DNA of 64,000 bases from Sediminicoccus rosea (GTDB taxonomy: Bacteria; Pseudomonadota; Alphaproteobacteria; Acetobacterales; Acetobacteraceae): the NCBI RefSeq assembly GCF_033547095.1, contig NZ_CP137852.1:3745001-3809000 (forward strand), in the 5' to 3' direction. Numbering within the stretch: position 1 is the first letter of the stretch; the number at the start of each line of letters is the position of its first letter. This document shows, in pieces, positions 2,669-15,580 of this stretch. The notes below the pieces were generated by a model. That model was not told the origin of the DNA and searched no databases. It saw nothing but the letters and a program-made list of their open reading frames with translations. The translations under genes and the position numbers were made by a program.

Positions 2669-3436
2669 ATGCTGCTCTCCCCGCGCCCCTCCCCGCCCGA
2701 ACCCGAGACGCCCAGCCCGGCGGCGATGGACCGCGCCGCCCTGCTGGCGGGGCTGCGCGCGCGGATCGCCCGCTTCGATCCGGGGCTCGAGACCGGCCGT
2801 GCCACCCTGCCCCTCTCGCCCGAGCTGGACGCCCACCTCCCCTGGGGCGGCCTGCCGCTCGCCGGGCTGCATGAGGTGCTGGCGGCCGAGCCCGGGGCCG
2901 GCATGGGCTTCGCTGGCCTGCTGCTGGCCCGCGCCCAGGCGGCGCTGCCCGGCCGTTCCGTCCTCTGGATCGCCGATGAGCCGGATGCCTATCCGCCCGG
3001 CCTCGCCAGCCTGGGCCTTTCCGCCGCCAGCCTGATCCTGGTCCGCGCGCCCCGCCCGGCCGATGCGCTCTGGGCGGCCGAGGAAGGGTTGCGCTGCCCG
3101 GCCATCGCCGCCGCCCTGGTGATGAACGTGACGCCCGACCTCACCGCCGCGCGCCGCCTGCAACTTGCCGCCGAGACGGGGGGCGGCATCGGCCTGCTGC
3201 TGCGCGGCGAAGATGAGAGCCCCGGCCCCACCGCGGCGCTGACCCGCTGGCGCCTGGCGGCCCGGCCCAGCGAGGGTGGCTCGGTCCATCAGCTCGGTGA
3301 CCCGGCCTGGGAGATCGCGCTGCTGCGGGCGCGGGGCGGACGGCCGGGGGCCTGGGCGGGCGAGTGGGACGCGCTCAGGGGCGAATTGCGGGTGATGGGG
3401 GCGGCCGCGCCAAGCCGGCGGGCGTTGGGCGCATGA
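2669..3436 (+). CDS. imuA: ImuA, SOS mutagenesis accessory protein
   Basis: RecA/SulA-like protein that works with ImuB and the DnaE2 polymerase in damage-induced mutagenesis. The 255-residue frame shows the family's GGLPLAGLHEVLAAEPGAG segment (residues 51-69) and the VLWIADEPDAYPPGL segment (93-107), with a typical Arg-rich C-terminal tail. The first ATG (2669) sits three bases after the LexA operator and lacks a ribosome-binding site. The ATG at 2726 (MDRAALLAGL) matches where the family normally begins and may be the true start. It is the first gene of the imuA-imuB-dnaE2 cassette. Confidence 0.85.
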   Translation: MLLSPRPSPPEPETPSPAAMDRAALLAGLRARIARFDPGLETGRATLPLSPELDAHLPWGGLPLAGLHEVLAAEPGAGMGFAGLLLARAQAALPGRSVLWIADEPDAYPPGLASLGLSAASLILVRAPRPADALWAAEEGLRCPAIAAALVMNVTPDLTAARRLQLAAETGGGIGLLLRGEDESPGPTAALTRWRLAARPSEGGSVHQLGDPAWEIALLRARGGRPGAWAGEWDALRGELRVMGAAAPSRRALGA

Positions 3437-3554: not shown

Positions 3555-4904
3555 ATGACGGGGCGGCGCGCTGCACGGACGCCGCGGCTGCCGCTCTTCG
3601 AGGCGGGGCCGCCAGTGGCACCGGCCCTCGCCCCCGCCACCGGGGAAGCCACCGGAACCCGCCGCTTCCTCATGCTGCACGGGCCAGGCCTGGCCTCCCC
3701 GCGCGCCGCCATCTGGGCGCTGCGCTTCTCCCCCCTCGTCGGCCTCTGGCGCGACGAAGGGCTGCTCATCGAGACCACCGGCCTGCCGGAGCCCGAACCC
3801 GCTTTGCTGGCCCGCGTGCTGGCGGCCTTCGAGACAGCCGGGCATCCGGCGCGGGGCTTGATCGGCGCTGCCCCCGCCGCGCTGGCCGCCCTGCTGCGCG
3901 CCGGCCTGCCCCCCCAGGTGCTGGACCCCATGCCCGATCTGGCACGCCTGCCGGTCAGCGCCCTCGCCCTGCCGGCCGAGGTGATCGCCGCCCTGCATCG
4001 CCTCGGCCTGCGCGAGGTGGCGGCGCTGGAGGCACAGCCGCGCGGCCCGCTGGCCCGGCGCTTCGGCCCCGCCATCGCACAGGAACTGGCGGCGCTGCGC
4101 GGCGCCATCGCCCCCTTCACCCCCATCCGCCCGCCGCCCCGCCACCGCGTGGCGCGGGACTGCCTTTCGCCGCTGGTCACCGCCCCAGGACTGGAGCGCG
4201 CCATCGGCGGGCTGATCGCGCAGCTTTGCGAGGGGCTGCTCGCCGCCGGCGAGGGCGCGCGGGTGCTGCGCCTCACCGCCTTCCGCGGCGATGCCTCCTG
4301 GCAGGAACTCCGCCAGGGCCTGGGCCAGGCGAGCCGCGAGCCCGCCCATCTGCACCGCCTGCTGGCCCGGCGCGTGGAGGAACTGCGGCCCGAACTGGGC
4401 TTCGAGCGCCTGGTCCTGGCGGCCGAGGTGACGGAGGCGCTTGCCCCCCGCCAGGCCGGATTGCCGGGCGAGGACACGGCGCCCGAGGAACTGGCCGCTC
4501 TGCTCGACCGGCTGGGGCAGCGGGTGAAGCTCTGGCGCCTCGCGCCCCATGCCTCGCATTGGCCCGAGCGCGCGCTGCGCCGCGTCAGCCCCTTCGCGAA
4601 GGTGGCCGAGTTCCAGCCGGCGTCACGCCCGGTGCGGCTGCTGCGGCGCCCCCTGGCGCTGGAGGCCGTGGCCCTGCTGCCCGATGCGCCCCCTTCCCTG
4701 CTGCGGCTGGGGCGGCAGAGCCACCGCATCCTGCGCGCCATGGGGCCGGAGCGGCTGGAGCCCGAATGGTGGAGCGGCCACGGCGCCCGCCCGCGCGACT
4801 ATTACCTGGTGCAGACCCAGGACGGCGCCCGCTGGTGGGTCTGCCGCAGCGGCGCCCCCGGCGCCGCGGACGCCAAGTGGTATCTGCATGGATATGTGTG
4901 TTGA
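3555..4904 (+). CDS. imuB: ImuB, Y-family polymerase-like protein (shortened N-terminus)
   Basis: Catalytically inactive Y-family polymerase homologue that bridges ImuA, DnaE2 and the sliding clamp. The 449-residue product has the family's FSPLVGLWRDEGLLIETTG strand, a helix-hairpin-helix-like stretch (LPAEVIAALHRLGLREVAAL), the little-finger region, and the characteristic C-terminal end (DYYLVQTQDGARWWVCRSG, then WYLHGYV). The polymerase domain is short: the RRFLML strand is followed almost at once by FSPLVGL, so about 60 residues normally lying between them are absent. The stop codon abuts the palindromic element at 4905. Confidence 0.85.
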   Translation: MTGRRAARTPRLPLFEAGPPVAPALAPATGEATGTRRFLMLHGPGLASPRAAIWALRFSPLVGLWRDEGLLIETTGLPEPEPALLARVLAAFETAGHPARGLIGAAPAALAALLRAGLPPQVLDPMPDLARLPVSALALPAEVIAALHRLGLREVAALEAQPRGPLARRFGPAIAQELAALRGAIAPFTPIRPPPRHRVARDCLSPLVTAPGLERAIGGLIAQLCEGLLAAGEGARVLRLTAFRGDASWQELRQGLGQASREPAHLHRLLARRVEELRPELGFERLVLAAEVTEALAPRQAGLPGEDTAPEELAALLDRLGQRVKLWRLAPHASHWPERALRRVSPFAKVAEFQPASRPVRLLRRPLALEAVALLPDAPPSLLRLGRQSHRILRAMGPERLEPEWWSGHGARPRDYYLVQTQDGARWWVCRSGAPGAADAKWYLHGYVC

Positions 4905-5139
4905 TGCCCTCAGACGCCGGGCGCCGGCTCTGCCGGCTTGGCTTCGCCGCGCCACGGGTGCGCCGGGCCATGGGTCCGGTTGGGCGGCGCCGGCCGCAGG
5001 CGCGGCCGGATTCTCGGAAGGAGCGCTGCTCATCCGAGCGCGGGAGCGCCCTCCGCGTATCCGCGCCGAATAGGCGCGGCGGAACGCTTCAGCGTTCCGA
5101 AGCCAAGCCGGCGGAGCCGGCGCCCGGCGCCTGAGGGCA
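4905..5139 (+). repeat. 235-bp palindromic repeat element filling the imuB-dnaE2 junction (copy A)
   Basis: The element starts on the base after the imuB TGA and ends on the first base of the dnaE2 ATG. Its 42-bp ends (4905-4946 and 5098-5139) are inverted repeats matching at 40 of 42 positions, with outer tips TGCCCTCAG and CTGAGGGCA. Inside the right half are three hairpins: 7-bp stems at 5061-5079 (loop GAATA) and 5081-5098 (loop TTCA), and a 6-bp stem at 5107-5121 (loop GGA). The bases TGA occur on both sides (4902-4904, 5140-5142), possibly a short target duplication. It encodes no protein and has no transposase. A related half-copy lies at about 15484-15580. Confidence 0.85.
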
Positions 5140-8100
5140 TGACATATGGCGAGCCCGCGGCGCTCTCGAACTTCTCCTTCCTGGAGGGGGCCTCGCATGC
5201 GCGGGAGCTGGTCGAGACGGCGCAGCGCCTGGGCCACTCGCTGATCGGCGTGGCGGACCGGCAGGGCTTCGCCGGCAGCGTGCAGGCCATGGTGGCGGCC
5301 GAGCAGGCGGGGCTGCGCTACCTGCTGGGTGTGCGGCTCACCTTGCTGGACGGCACGGAATACCTGGCCTGGCCCAGCGACCGCGCCGCCTATGGGCGGC
5401 TGACCGCCATGCTCTCGGCGGCACGGATGGAGGCGCCCAAGGGCGAATGCCCGCTGACGCGCGAGGCGCTGCTCGCCGCCGCACCCGGCCAGGCCCTGGC
5501 GCTGTTGGCCCCTCGCAAGCCCGACGCCGCCTTCGCCGCGCGGCTCCGGCGCGATGCGGCGGAGTTCGGCCGCGCGCTGGCGATGCCGCTCATGGTCGCC
5601 GCCCATCACCGCGCCATCGGCGATGACCGCGCGCGGCTCGATGCGCTGGCCGCCATGGGTGCCAGGCTGATCGCGGCCGGCGGCGTGCGCTACCACGTCC
5701 CGCAGCGGCGCCGGCTGGCCGATGTGCTGACCGCCATCCGCCTGGGCCGCCCCGTGGAGGAGCTCGGCCTGGACGCCGAGCCCAATGGCGAGGCCTGCCT
5801 CAAGCCGGAGGGCGAGTTGCGCCGCCTCTTCCAGGGGCATGAGGCGGCGGTGGATCGCGTGGCGGAGCTGGCGGAGGTCGCGCGGTTTTCCCTCCGCGAG
5901 CTCGCCTATGAATACCCGGATGAGATCCTCGACCCCGGCCGCACCCCGCAGCAGACGCTGGAAGCCCGCGTGGCCGAGGCCGAGCGCCGGATCTGGCCGG
6001 AAGGCACGCCGCCGAAGGTGGCGCGCCAGATCGCGCATGAACTCGCGCTGATCGCGAAGCTGAACTACGCGCCCTATTTCCTGACGGTGCACGAGATCGT
6101 GCGCTATGCGCGCTCGCGCGGCATCCTCTGCCAGGGGCGCGGCTCGGCGGCCAATTCGGCGGTGTGCTACGCGCTCGGCATCACCGCCGTGCCGCCCGAC
6201 AAGCATGACCTGCTCTTCGAGCGCTTCATCAGCGAGGCGCGCGACGAACCGCCCGACATCGACGTGGATTTCGAACATGAGCGGCGCGAGGAGGTGATCC
6301 AGCACATCTACGAACGCTACGGCCGCCACCGCGCGGCCATCGCCGCCACCGTGATCCGCTTCCGCGAGCGCAGCGCGATCCGCGAGGTGGGCAAGGCGCT
6401 GGGCCTGGATGAGGCGGTGACGGCGCCGCTCGCCAAGGCCGTCTGGGGGGCGGGCGACGCCACCTGGGCGGAGATCGCGGCCGAGCATGGGCTGGATGCG
6501 GAGGACCCGCGCCTCAAGCTCGCCTGCGAGCTGGCCGATGAGATCCAGGATTTCCCGCGCCACCTCGCCACCCATGTCGGCGGCTTCGTCATCACGCGCG
6601 GGCCGCTCACCGAGCTGTGCGTCGTGACCCGCGCGGCGATGGAGAACCGCCACACCATCGAATGGGACAAGGACGACATCGAGGCGCTGCGCATGCTGAA
6701 GGTGGATGTGCTGGGCCTGGGCATGCTGAGCTGCATCCGGCGCGGCCTGGCGCTGATCGGCAAGTCGGCGCTGACCGAAATCCCGCAGGACGACCCCGCC
6801 ACCTATGAGATGCTGAGCCGGGCGGACAGCCTCGGCGTCTTCCAGGTGGAGAGCCGGGCGCAGATGAACATGCTGCCGCGCCTGCGCCCGCGCGAGTTCT
6901 ACGACCTGGTGATCGAGGTCGCGATCGTGCGCCCGGGCCCGATCCAGGGCGACATGGTCCATCCCTATCTGCGCCGCCGCAATGGCGAGGAGGCGGTGGA
7001 GGTGCCGCCGGGATTGGAGGAGGTGCTGGGCAAGACGCTCGGCGTGCCGCTCTTCCAGGAGCAGGCGATGAAGATCGCGATCGTCGGCGCCGGCTTCTCG
7101 GCCACGCGCGCGGACCAGTTGCGGCGTGCCATGGCGACCTTCAAGCGCAACGGCCAGCTCCCGCAATTCCGCGCGGAGTTCCTCGAGGGCATGGCGCGCA
7201 ACGGCTATGACCCCGGCTTCGCCGAGCGCTGCTTCCGCCAGCTGGAAGGCTTCGGCACCTATGGCTTCCCGGAGAGCCATGCGGCGAGCTTCGCGCAGCT
7301 GGTCTACATCTCGGCCTGGCTGAAATGCCACCACCCGGCGGCCTTCGCGGCGGCGCTGCTGAACAGCCAGCCCATGGGCTTCTATGCGCCGGCGCAGATC
7401 ATCCGCGACGCGCGCGAGCATGGCGTGCGGGTGCGGCCGATCGATGTGACCATCAGCGAGTGGGACTGCACGCTGGAGGGGGAAGAGCTGCGCCTCGGCC
7501 TGCGCCAGGTGACGGGCCTTTCCGACAAGGTGGCCGGGCGCATCATGGCCGCACGCCCCTTCGCCGATTTCCGCGACCTGGTGCGGCGTGCGAGCCTGGA
7601 TCGGGGCGCGGTGGAGCGCCTGGCCGAGGCCGATGCGCTGCGGGGCCTGGGTCTCGACCGCCGCGCGGCACTCTGGGAAGCGGCGGCCGTCGAACACGCG
7701 ACAGCCCTCGCCGCCCCCATCACCGAGGCCGCGCCGCAACTCCCGCTGGCGACGGCGGGCGAGCGCGTGGTGCTGGATTATGCCGGCACCGGCCTGACCC
7801 TCGGCCCGCATCCGCTGGCGCTGCTGCGGGGTGAACTCGCACGGCGCGGCGCCGTCAGCACGCTGGACTACGCCCGCGCGCGGCAGGGGAAGTGGCTGCG
7901 CGTGGCGGGGCTCGTGCTGGTGCGGCAGCGGCCGGGCAGTGCCAAGGGCGTGATGTTCTTCACCATCGAGGATGAGCACGGCACGGCCAATCTCGTCCTC
8001 TTCCCCGACATCTCGCAGCGCTTCCGGCGCGAGGTGGTGGCGGCACGCCTGGTCATCGCCGAAGGGCGCCTGGAGCGCACCGAAGCGCATGTGCCCATCC

Positions 8101-8285
8101 TGCACCTGCTGGTCCGCAAGCTGGAGGATCATTCGGCCCTGCTGCACGGGCTGCATGAGCTGGATGGCGACACCTGGGCCAGGACCATCGCCCATGCGGA
8201 TGAGGTGCTGCGGCCCAACCTCTCGCCCGATCCACGGGTGAAGCGGAAGGAAGCGCTACGCCAGCCCAGCAGGGATTTTAAGTGA
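5139..8285 (+). CDS. dnaE2: DnaE2/ImuC, error-prone DNA polymerase III alpha subunit
   Basis: Error-prone C-family polymerase of the SOS mutasome (1048 residues, normal for the family). An N-terminal PHP domain begins at ALSNFSFLEGASH. The polymerase active site includes PDIDVDF at about residues 371-377. A helix-hairpin-helix region and an OB-fold domain (about 900-1020) follow, without the clamp-binding end of replicative DnaE1. The start at 5139 matches the usual N-terminus. The frame stays open upstream through the repeat element, but that part is not conserved protein. The A of the ATG is the last base of the element. Third gene of the imuA-imuB-dnaE2 cassette. Confidence 0.93.
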   Translation: MTYGEPAALSNFSFLEGASHARELVETAQRLGHSLIGVADRQGFAGSVQAMVAAEQAGLRYLLGVRLTLLDGTEYLAWPSDRAAYGRLTAMLSAARMEAPKGECPLTREALLAAAPGQALALLAPRKPDAAFAARLRRDAAEFGRALAMPLMVAAHHRAIGDDRARLDALAAMGARLIAAGGVRYHVPQRRRLADVLTAIRLGRPVEELGLDAEPNGEACLKPEGELRRLFQGHEAAVDRVAELAEVARFSLRELAYEYPDEILDPGRTPQQTLEARVAEAERRIWPEGTPPKVARQIAHELALIAKLNYAPYFLTVHEIVRYARSRGILCQGRGSAANSAVCYALGITAVPPDKHDLLFERFISEARDEPPDIDVDFEHERREEVIQHIYERYGRHRAAIAATVIRFRERSAIREVGKALGLDEAVTAPLAKAVWGAGDATWAEIAAEHGLDAEDPRLKLACELADEIQDFPRHLATHVGGFVITRGPLTELCVVTRAAMENRHTIEWDKDDIEALRMLKVDVLGLGMLSCIRRGLALIGKSALTEIPQDDPATYEMLSRADSLGVFQVESRAQMNMLPRLRPREFYDLVIEVAIVRPGPIQGDMVHPYLRRRNGEEAVEVPPGLEEVLGKTLGVPLFQEQAMKIAIVGAGFSATRADQLRRAMATFKRNGQLPQFRAEFLEGMARNGYDPGFAERCFRQLEGFGTYGFPESHAASFAQLVYISAWLKCHHPAAFAAALLNSQPMGFYAPAQIIRDAREHGVRVRPIDVTISEWDCTLEGEELRLGLRQVTGLSDKVAGRIMAARPFADFRDLVRRASLDRGAVERLAEADALRGLGLDRRAALWEAAAVEHATALAAPITEAAPQLPLATAGERVVLDYAGTGLTLGPHPLALLRGELARRGAVSTLDYARARQGKWLRVAGLVLVRQRPGSAKGVMFFTIEDEHGTANLVLFPDISQRFRREVVAARLVIAEGRLERTEAHVPILHLLVRKLEDHSALLHGLHELDGDTWARTIAHADEVLRPNLSPDPRVKRKEALRQPSRDFK

Positions 8286-15483: not shown

Positions 15484-15580
15484 GCGTGCCTCCTGAGGAT
15501 CCGGGCCGAACAGGCCCGGCGGCTCACTTCAGCGATCCGAAGCCAAGCGCGCGGACGCGCGCGCCCGGCGCCTGAGGGCA
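15484..15580 (+). repeat. palindromic repeat element, right-half copy (copy B)
   Basis: It aligns with the right half of copy A and is in the same orientation. By hand alignment about 68 of 80 positions match over 15501-15580, with the same end, CTGAGGGCA. The first hairpin (15501-15519, loop GAACA) and the third (15547-15562) keep full pairing although the stem bases differ from copy A. The middle hairpin (15521-15538) is degraded. The left inverted arm is missing. ATCAAACG occurs on both sides (15473-15480 and 15587-15594), which may be chance. It fills the gap between the convergent Ldh and NTF2-like genes. Confidence 0.75.

Follow-up and report, generated by a model that had tools for sequence, protein, structure and literature searches.

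A tail-to-tail pair of dispersed repeats at the imuB-dnaE2 junction of Sediminicoccus rosea, probably changing how DnaE2 is made

In the usual layout of the cassette, imuA, imuB and dnaE2 follow one another in this order. In Sediminicoccus rosea a palindromic element lies exactly between the stop codon of imuB and the start codon of dnaE2, which raises the question of what this element is, how it came to this place and what it would do to the production of DnaE2. We analysed a window of 64,000 nucleotides (G000:C1:3745001-3809000) from the 5.1-Mb genome, hereafter G000; genes were called with a codon-usage script trained on the window, and certain start codons may be wrong. The cassette comprises:

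2651-2665, no strand assigned: GAACN7GAAC box, 3 bp 5' of imuA
2669-3436, plus strand: imuA (NCBIfam NF033429, E 8e-24, 84.5 bits, under the curated cut-off of 150)
3555-4904, plus strand: imuB, encoding a divergent Y-family protein, identified via a profile of relatives
5139-8285, plus strand: dnaE2 (NCBIfam NF004225, error-prone DNA polymerase, 1299.6 bits, cut-off 939)

On these scores the dnaE2 assignment is secure and that of imuA weaker. ImuB alone (3555-4901) matched nothing in Pfam or NCBIfam even at E<=10. A profile built from the ImuB of eight relatives matched DNA polymerase iota at 2.2e-4, and the ImuB of some relatives gave weak matches to Pol IV, IMS_C and DUF6504. ImuB has diverged so far in this group that a family match required the eight-sequence profile. 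The GAACN7GAAC box, which we take to be an SOS (LexA) box of the alphaproteobacterial type, is the single match in the window; 0.53 would be expected by chance and at least one was present in 43 of 100 shuffles, so that our reading relies on its position just 5' of imuA and not on rarity.

The element measures 235 bp (4905-5139). It begins directly after the imuB TGA (4902-4904), and its last base is the A of the dnaE2 ATG (5139-5141). Its inverted ends pair at 40 of 42 positions (43 nt and 95% complementary when the arms were extended by the tool), and a TGA stands on both sides. A preliminary description of this DNA had reported the placement, the arms and the flanks, and all of them were confirmed on the sequence. 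The 235 nt are predicted to fold at -194.5 kcal/mol, against -135.0 +/- 4.8 kcal/mol for 200 dinucleotide shuffles, none of which was as good (z -12.4). A known RNA family was rejected, as Rfam gave no match at gathering score in the window and none at E<=1 in 4880-5180; carriage in plasmid or phage records was likewise rejected, with no blastn match to the element at 1e-5.

That the element belongs to a dispersed repeat, as had been proposed, was borne out by BLAST, which gave 108 matches in the genome that carries it, certain places being counted on both strands. Besides the element itself, the matches listed span its left part, its right part or one arm only. Sequence comparison resolves the element into two units instead of one, a tail-to-tail pair of related dispersed repeats, A (plus strand) and B (minus strand), each of about 100 bp with several hairpins and a common head of about 42 bp. 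The window holds the following parts:

4905-5010, plus strand: unit A, head outward to the imuB stop (model R1, 101.1 bits; own sequence among the model's 21)
4905-4946, plus strand: left inverted arm, the head common to A and B (arm comparison)
5011-5043, no strand assigned: tails and spacer between the units (gap between the model ends; alignable gap-free in G008 and G015)
5044-5139, minus strand: unit B, head outward to the dnaE2 start (model R2, 110.7 bits, best of 60; own sequence among the model's 10)
5098-5139, minus strand: right inverted arm (arm comparison)
5132-5137, plus strand: tip TGAGGG, Shine-Dalgarno-like, 1 nt before the in-frame ATG
15484-15580, minus strand: a second B unit (model R2, 85.2 bits), between convergent genes, head 7 nt from a stop codon

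With models of 105 (R1) and 96 positions (R2), we found at least 93 units (61 A and 32 B) at 71 places after array joining. These counts are lower bounds, with 150 of about 21,000 first-look candidates scored, and the last five R2 rows, all on units already found with R1, were omitted. Any overlap with a called gene is limited to 20 nt for all of the 93 units; the loci lie between co-directional (47), convergent (21) or divergent genes (3). Opposite-strand units less than 1 kb apart occur at a single locus of the 71, the imuB-dnaE2 pair. The unit structures have four helices in A and five in B, and their stem pairs contain pairing-preserving double changes in 20 of 606 cells (A) and 12 of 260 (B), values that none of 500 shuffles reached and that fell to at most 8 and 3 when the partners were slid. 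The number of A pairs with a double change was ordinary (4 vs 3.3 in shuffles; 216 of 500 reach it), as were further pair types (9 vs 8.3 in A, 6 vs 5.7 in B). Some stem pairs of A and B thus appear to have been kept by double changes.

Tandem arrays lie at G000:C1:4883264-4883726, 3258529-3258975, 4708051-4708512, 979355-979727 and 4299153-4299714, with start spacings of 91 to 146, and some of them repeat a short flank with the unit, as if unit plus flank had been duplicated. One fifth of the chromosome (G000:C1:1940000-3010000) carries 1 of the 71 loci where about 15 are expected (post hoc p 1e-6); this repeat-poor fifth perhaps surrounds the replication terminus.

We found that the heads are placed sharply at gene borders. 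The head faces a stop codon at 47 of the 71 loci and a start codon at the other 24. A stop lies 0-8 nt away for 32/47 heads vs 0/42 tails (p=6e-13), and an outward start at 5-7 nt for 16/24 heads vs 0/29 tails (p=5e-8); two further start-facing loci, 400023 and 4708051, have an ATG at 6 nt by eye and were left out of the count. At the 16 start sites the outward tip is TGAGGG (TGAGGA twice), ending 7-9 nt before the ATG, with anti-Shine-Dalgarno pairing energies of -6.1 and -5.6 kcal/mol, respectively. Of 209 other ATG genes used for comparison, 140 reach -4 kcal/mol or better at such a site, most commonly at a spacing of 6. In a profile of 67 of the 71 loci (four with no clear head motif were dropped), T makes up 49-85% at each position from -9 to -4 upstream of the head, vs 14% overall. 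The distant congener G003 repeats the placement bias, more weakly than G000: a start lies within -2 to 8 nt, a wider range than that used in G000, for 6/8 heads (4/8 at 5-7 nt) vs 0/12 tails (p=7e-4), and a stop within 0-8 nt for 8/19 heads vs 0/15 tails (p=0.0045), in a test with the class A model only (30 of 39 matches, 27 after array joining). Positions as sharp as these suggest that the tip of the repeat itself serves as a translation signal, which would explain why the repeats persist beside genes like accC or rpoA. REP-type repeats have mostly been treated as elements 3' of genes.

The same placement bears on the possibility that the element acts at the RNA level, by protecting the 3' end of the imuAB mRNA or by partial termination, leaving less dnaE2 transcript. 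Proposed REP roles of such kind are given in PMC3733652, the stop-facing majority of heads (47/71) would fit them and the predicted fold is very stable. However, the hairpin here is not followed by a U-run, the family has its T-rich flank before the head instead, and heads face starts as well (24/71). We therefore regard an action of this kind as unlikely.

What the junction looked like without the element can be read from the relatives. ImuB was found in 18 of the 21 genomes of the genus, our own included, and the 18 junctions comprise 10 with no insert, 3 with an A-B pair, 3 with a single A and 2 with other repeats. All ten uninserted genomes, outgroups among them, have an open in-frame start that overlaps the imuB stop by 4 bp, as GTGA in G014, G009, G012, G018, G006, G017 and G004 and as ATGA in G016, G005 and G002. 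The proposal that a repeat had landed on a stop/start overlap is thus largely upheld, and the relatives do not share one junction sequence that occurs nowhere else. Of the empty site then imagined, with a TTG start over the TGA, the layout stood and the start codon did not. In G016, G006, G017 and G004 (L038, L039, L040 and L041) the overlap start makes dnaE2 19-24 codons (57-72 nt) longer, and the added N-terminus might stem from an absorbed remnant, extend the protein naturally or point to a later start; in these four of the ten a later in-frame start could be used, which counts against the reading favoured below.

The A-B pair is present in G000, G008 (Roseococcus sp. SDR) and G015, and in all three the A of the dnaE2 ATG comes from the element, in agreement with the earlier idea that its terminal base rebuilt the start codon. 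The flanks are TGA/TGA in G000, TAG on the left and TGG on the right in G008 (the first base of the element is aligned there with the G of TAG), and TAA/TGA in G015, in which 15 nt separate the imuB stop from the head. Among the three pairs, G000 alone thus has a TGA at either end. This double TGA speaks for reading the element as a single mobile repeat of transposon (MITE) type, with 42-bp terminal inverted repeats and a TGA target duplicated in one insertion. There are, however, two types of unit, single units have one such end, the left TGA is absent from the sister copies in G008 and G015, no Y1 transposase was found in the genome by a search limited to the Y1 type, and the history is mosaic. 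We consider a MITE origin very improbable; in its one-unit form with target duplication it is largely refuted by the unit structure and by flanks that vary among orthologous pairs. The insertion idea as a whole is largely supported, without the TGA duplication.

Unit A stands alone at the junction in G020, G019 and G003. In each of these genomes the junction copy is the best match to the window element, and the three probably descend from one old insertion for this reason. In G001 (L045:1274-1494) a different repeat, with 44 matches for the whole insert, starts 2-5 nt past the imuB stop and is followed by a decayed A, and G010 (L046:1487-1734) carries another mosaic with 16 matches, mostly to parts. 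These inserts bring the repeat material that has entered the imuB-dnaE2 junction to at least three kinds. A second, diverged pair occurs elsewhere in G015. Overlap, single unit, pair and other repeats together form a natural series for testing the stop/start overlap in an SOS mutagenesis cassette.

Over their 235 bp, spacer included, the three pairs can be aligned gap-free, with 25 (G008) and 33 (G015) differences from G000, and they are hence of common origin. Their arms match at 40/42 (G000), 37/42 (G008) and 35/42 (G015) positions, the near-perfect match not being common to all, and we found no covariation between the two arms across the three pairs. On these grounds, a pairing of the arms kept by selection was rejected.

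The descent of the pair is less simple. In a four-gene DNA tree G000 and G008 were joined (100/99) and G015 stood among pair-less genomes (98/100), as it did in the protein version (87/95); both trees were built without G005 and G002, and rpoA was missing in them for G015 and G018. Because of the position of G015 in the DNA tree, gain and loss are not cleanly ordered, and a clean single gain in one clade was rejected. The ImuB protein tree groups the three pairs (88/92; with the G019 row misread in frame, as a contig end cuts its locus). G015 stayed unplaced in the single-gene DNA trees of imuB and accC, and the 5' part of dnaE2 set it with G009 (93/98). At imuB sites that split G000/G008 from G009/G014/G012, G015 follows the latter 38:7 outside the last 190 nt, whereas within the last 190 nt (L034, G015) it follows G000/G008 13:2 (p=1.2e-6, with the 190-nt border picked after inspection of the data). 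Outgroups share either state at different imuB sites. A local exchange near the junction is likely, and homologous exchange of a tract bearing the junction would best explain the pattern of G015.

These results also bear on whether the insert matters at all. The repeats may simply spread or persist at gene borders, the junction copy being a neutral passenger that is tolerated with no useful effect on DnaE2. The family sits at 71 places in one genome, 10 of the 18 genus genomes do without an insert, there are signs of loss or exchange between species and the arms lack covariation. Conversely, some stem pairs are maintained through double changes, and the pair diverges from G000 by 10.6% (G008) and 14.0% (G015), compared with 20-23% and 31-33% at 4-fold sites of imuB and dnaE2, a low divergence that gene conversion among copies could explain. 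On balance we doubt that the element is neutral, while regarding this as a serious possibility.

Two other positions of the family suggest long residence. At the accC start a unit (whole, shortened or decayed) is found at a shared position in 14 of 19 orthologous loci (L097-L115); G018 has a remnant only, G012, G004, G002 and G005 have no unit, and the locus of G011 is cut by a contig end. The start region of accC in G008 carries two units in tandem. The accC ATG abuts the tip, as that of dnaE2 does, in G006, G003, G020, G019 and G010, in the same GAGGGCATG form; the distance from tip to ATG is 7 in G000 and several nt in other genomes. Provided that accC is essential, a start codon abutting the tip cannot be a dead context, because five accC genes use it, and this counts against the reading favoured below. 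At the rpoA stop, units are recognisable in 8 of 20 loci (G000, G008, G014, G015, G009, G019, G020 and G003). With presence judged by eye at both genes, the units there resemble old residents, inherited at their sites with turnover, more than highly mobile elements. When 120 genomes of the family (our own and G020 included) were searched with one A unit, 35 gave a match. Outside the genus, only G114 and G091 gave matches of about 100 bases, with at most 7 candidates scored per genome, and the remaining ones covered the head of about 45 nt or were short and weak. On these matches, the repeat family is scattered at gene borders in the genus (Roseococcus by named match) and in parts of its family.

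Considering all the above results, we lean, by a modest preference over disbelief, to the reading that the element is a REP-like A-B pair that landed on an ancestral 4-bp overlap, with loss of dnaE2 reinitiation and a translation that is lowered or gated by the hairpin. In the ancestor, the imuB stop and the dnaE2 start would have overlapped by 4 bp. As the comparison shows, repeat units settled exactly at this point, the tip of B giving the A of the new dnaE2 ATG. In the mRNA, A and B are predicted to close a hairpin at whose foot the imuB stop and the dnaE2 AUG stand opposite each other. The predicted pairing extends beyond the element, with GUGUGUU at the end of imuB against GACAUAU of dnaE2, hiding the AUG, and all three orthologous pairs are predicted to fold with closed ends. 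A ribosome ending imuB would then no longer be on the dnaE2 start, and the GAGGG of the tip would be both paired and, at 1 nt from the AUG, too close (the tip ends 7-9 nt before the ATG at the 16 well-placed sites elsewhere). Since the ribosome would be off the start and GAGGG so placed, the simplest outcome would be a dnaE2 that is less translated, or translated chiefly when the hairpin is open. In any of these forms, the insert probably changes how DnaE2 is made. Passages of PMC12548453 associate structure directly after a stop with weaker coupling, and they also record that the literature holds both effects of structure on coupling. Against selection for a long hairpin stand the arms of G008 and G015, which differ more and without compensation, and the stop of G015, 15 nt off the head.

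The predicted fold could also act in the opposite sense. If the end of imuB pairs with the dnaE2 AUG, the latter would be freed only by ribosomes that complete imuB, and dependence on imuB translation would be restored. The predicted pairing does reach the last codons of imuB and the dnaE2 AUG, the three pairs are all predicted end-closed, and a coupling class of this kind is described in passages of PMC12548453 and PMC6728339. The distance of the G015 stop (15 nt before the head), the lack of arm covariation and the weaker coupling reported with post-stop structure (passages of PMC12548453) make such unfolding by the ribosome rather doubtful to us. More speculatively than the lowered or gated translation that we favour, the family tip with its flank might be a two-way border module, T-rich with a stop inward and a Shine-Dalgarno with an A-rich spacer outward, so that units settle without killing the neighbouring gene. 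Two such tips would have made the 4-bp overlap into a hairpin-gated start tying an error-prone polymerase to its partner's translation, at a junction broken in different relatives by different repeats. We offer this only tentatively.

Inverted pairs of REP elements are named BIMEs or REPINs. Like REP/BIME/REPIN elements of the GTAG superfamily, the family consists of dispersed extragenic palindromes near gene ends, with tandem groups and inverted pairs, and the two inverted REP-like units of a BIME/REPIN are seen in A (plus) and B (minus) at 4905-5139, 1 of the 71 loci. According to passages of PMC3733652, GTAG REPs often supply the stop codon of the preceding ORF, and DnaE2 is listed among REP-tagged proteins. 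GTAG REPs, however, have units of 20-40 bp, whereas the units here measure about 100 bp with several hairpins and their A and B consensus has no GTAG foot at either end. The RAYT profile (Y1 transposase, PF01797) gave 0 matches in the genome itself and was found in 5 of 14 control genomes; a RAYT-driven REP was rejected on the former result.

CGTC REPs, as described in passages of PMC3733652, are likewise alphaproteobacterial, near ORF 3' ends and with no known transposase. They have one stem of 8-9 bp, a loop of 4-5 nt and mostly a CCA tail, and they are reported missing in Acetobacteraceae; this one-stem/CCA form differs from the 4-5 helices per unit seen here. As to the CGTC tag that these REPs bear at one end, the outward tip here reads CGTCTGAGGGC in many copies, and also CGCC, CGTT or CGCT, but within the tip this stretch is followed by TGAGGGC and hence is not terminal. 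MITEs bear terminal inverted repeats on each copy, whereas here only the pair has them and single A or B units share one head; a target site duplication is not seen either, TGA/TGA being found only in G000 among the three pairs.

In pneumococcal BOX elements, too, the repeat gives the stop codon of the preceding gene (36 cases, passages of PMC3049150). They are another repeat in another genus, likened here by description, and those passages contain no tip acting as a Shine-Dalgarno. The RNA-unfolding coupling of rpmI-rplT and MS2 (passages of PMC12548453) is similar in that a second start is masked by pairing and can be opened by translation of the first gene, but the mask here would be a repeat pair, as the predicted fold has it. 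That REPs lie near ORF ends and even give stop codons is already known (passages of PMC3733652). A repeat tip serving as a Shine-Dalgarno at fixed spacing was not found in the passages of open-licence literature that we searched. The family thus departs from tested features of GTAG REPs, CGTC REPs and MITEs, and its fixed-spacing tip is a putative Shine-Dalgarno.
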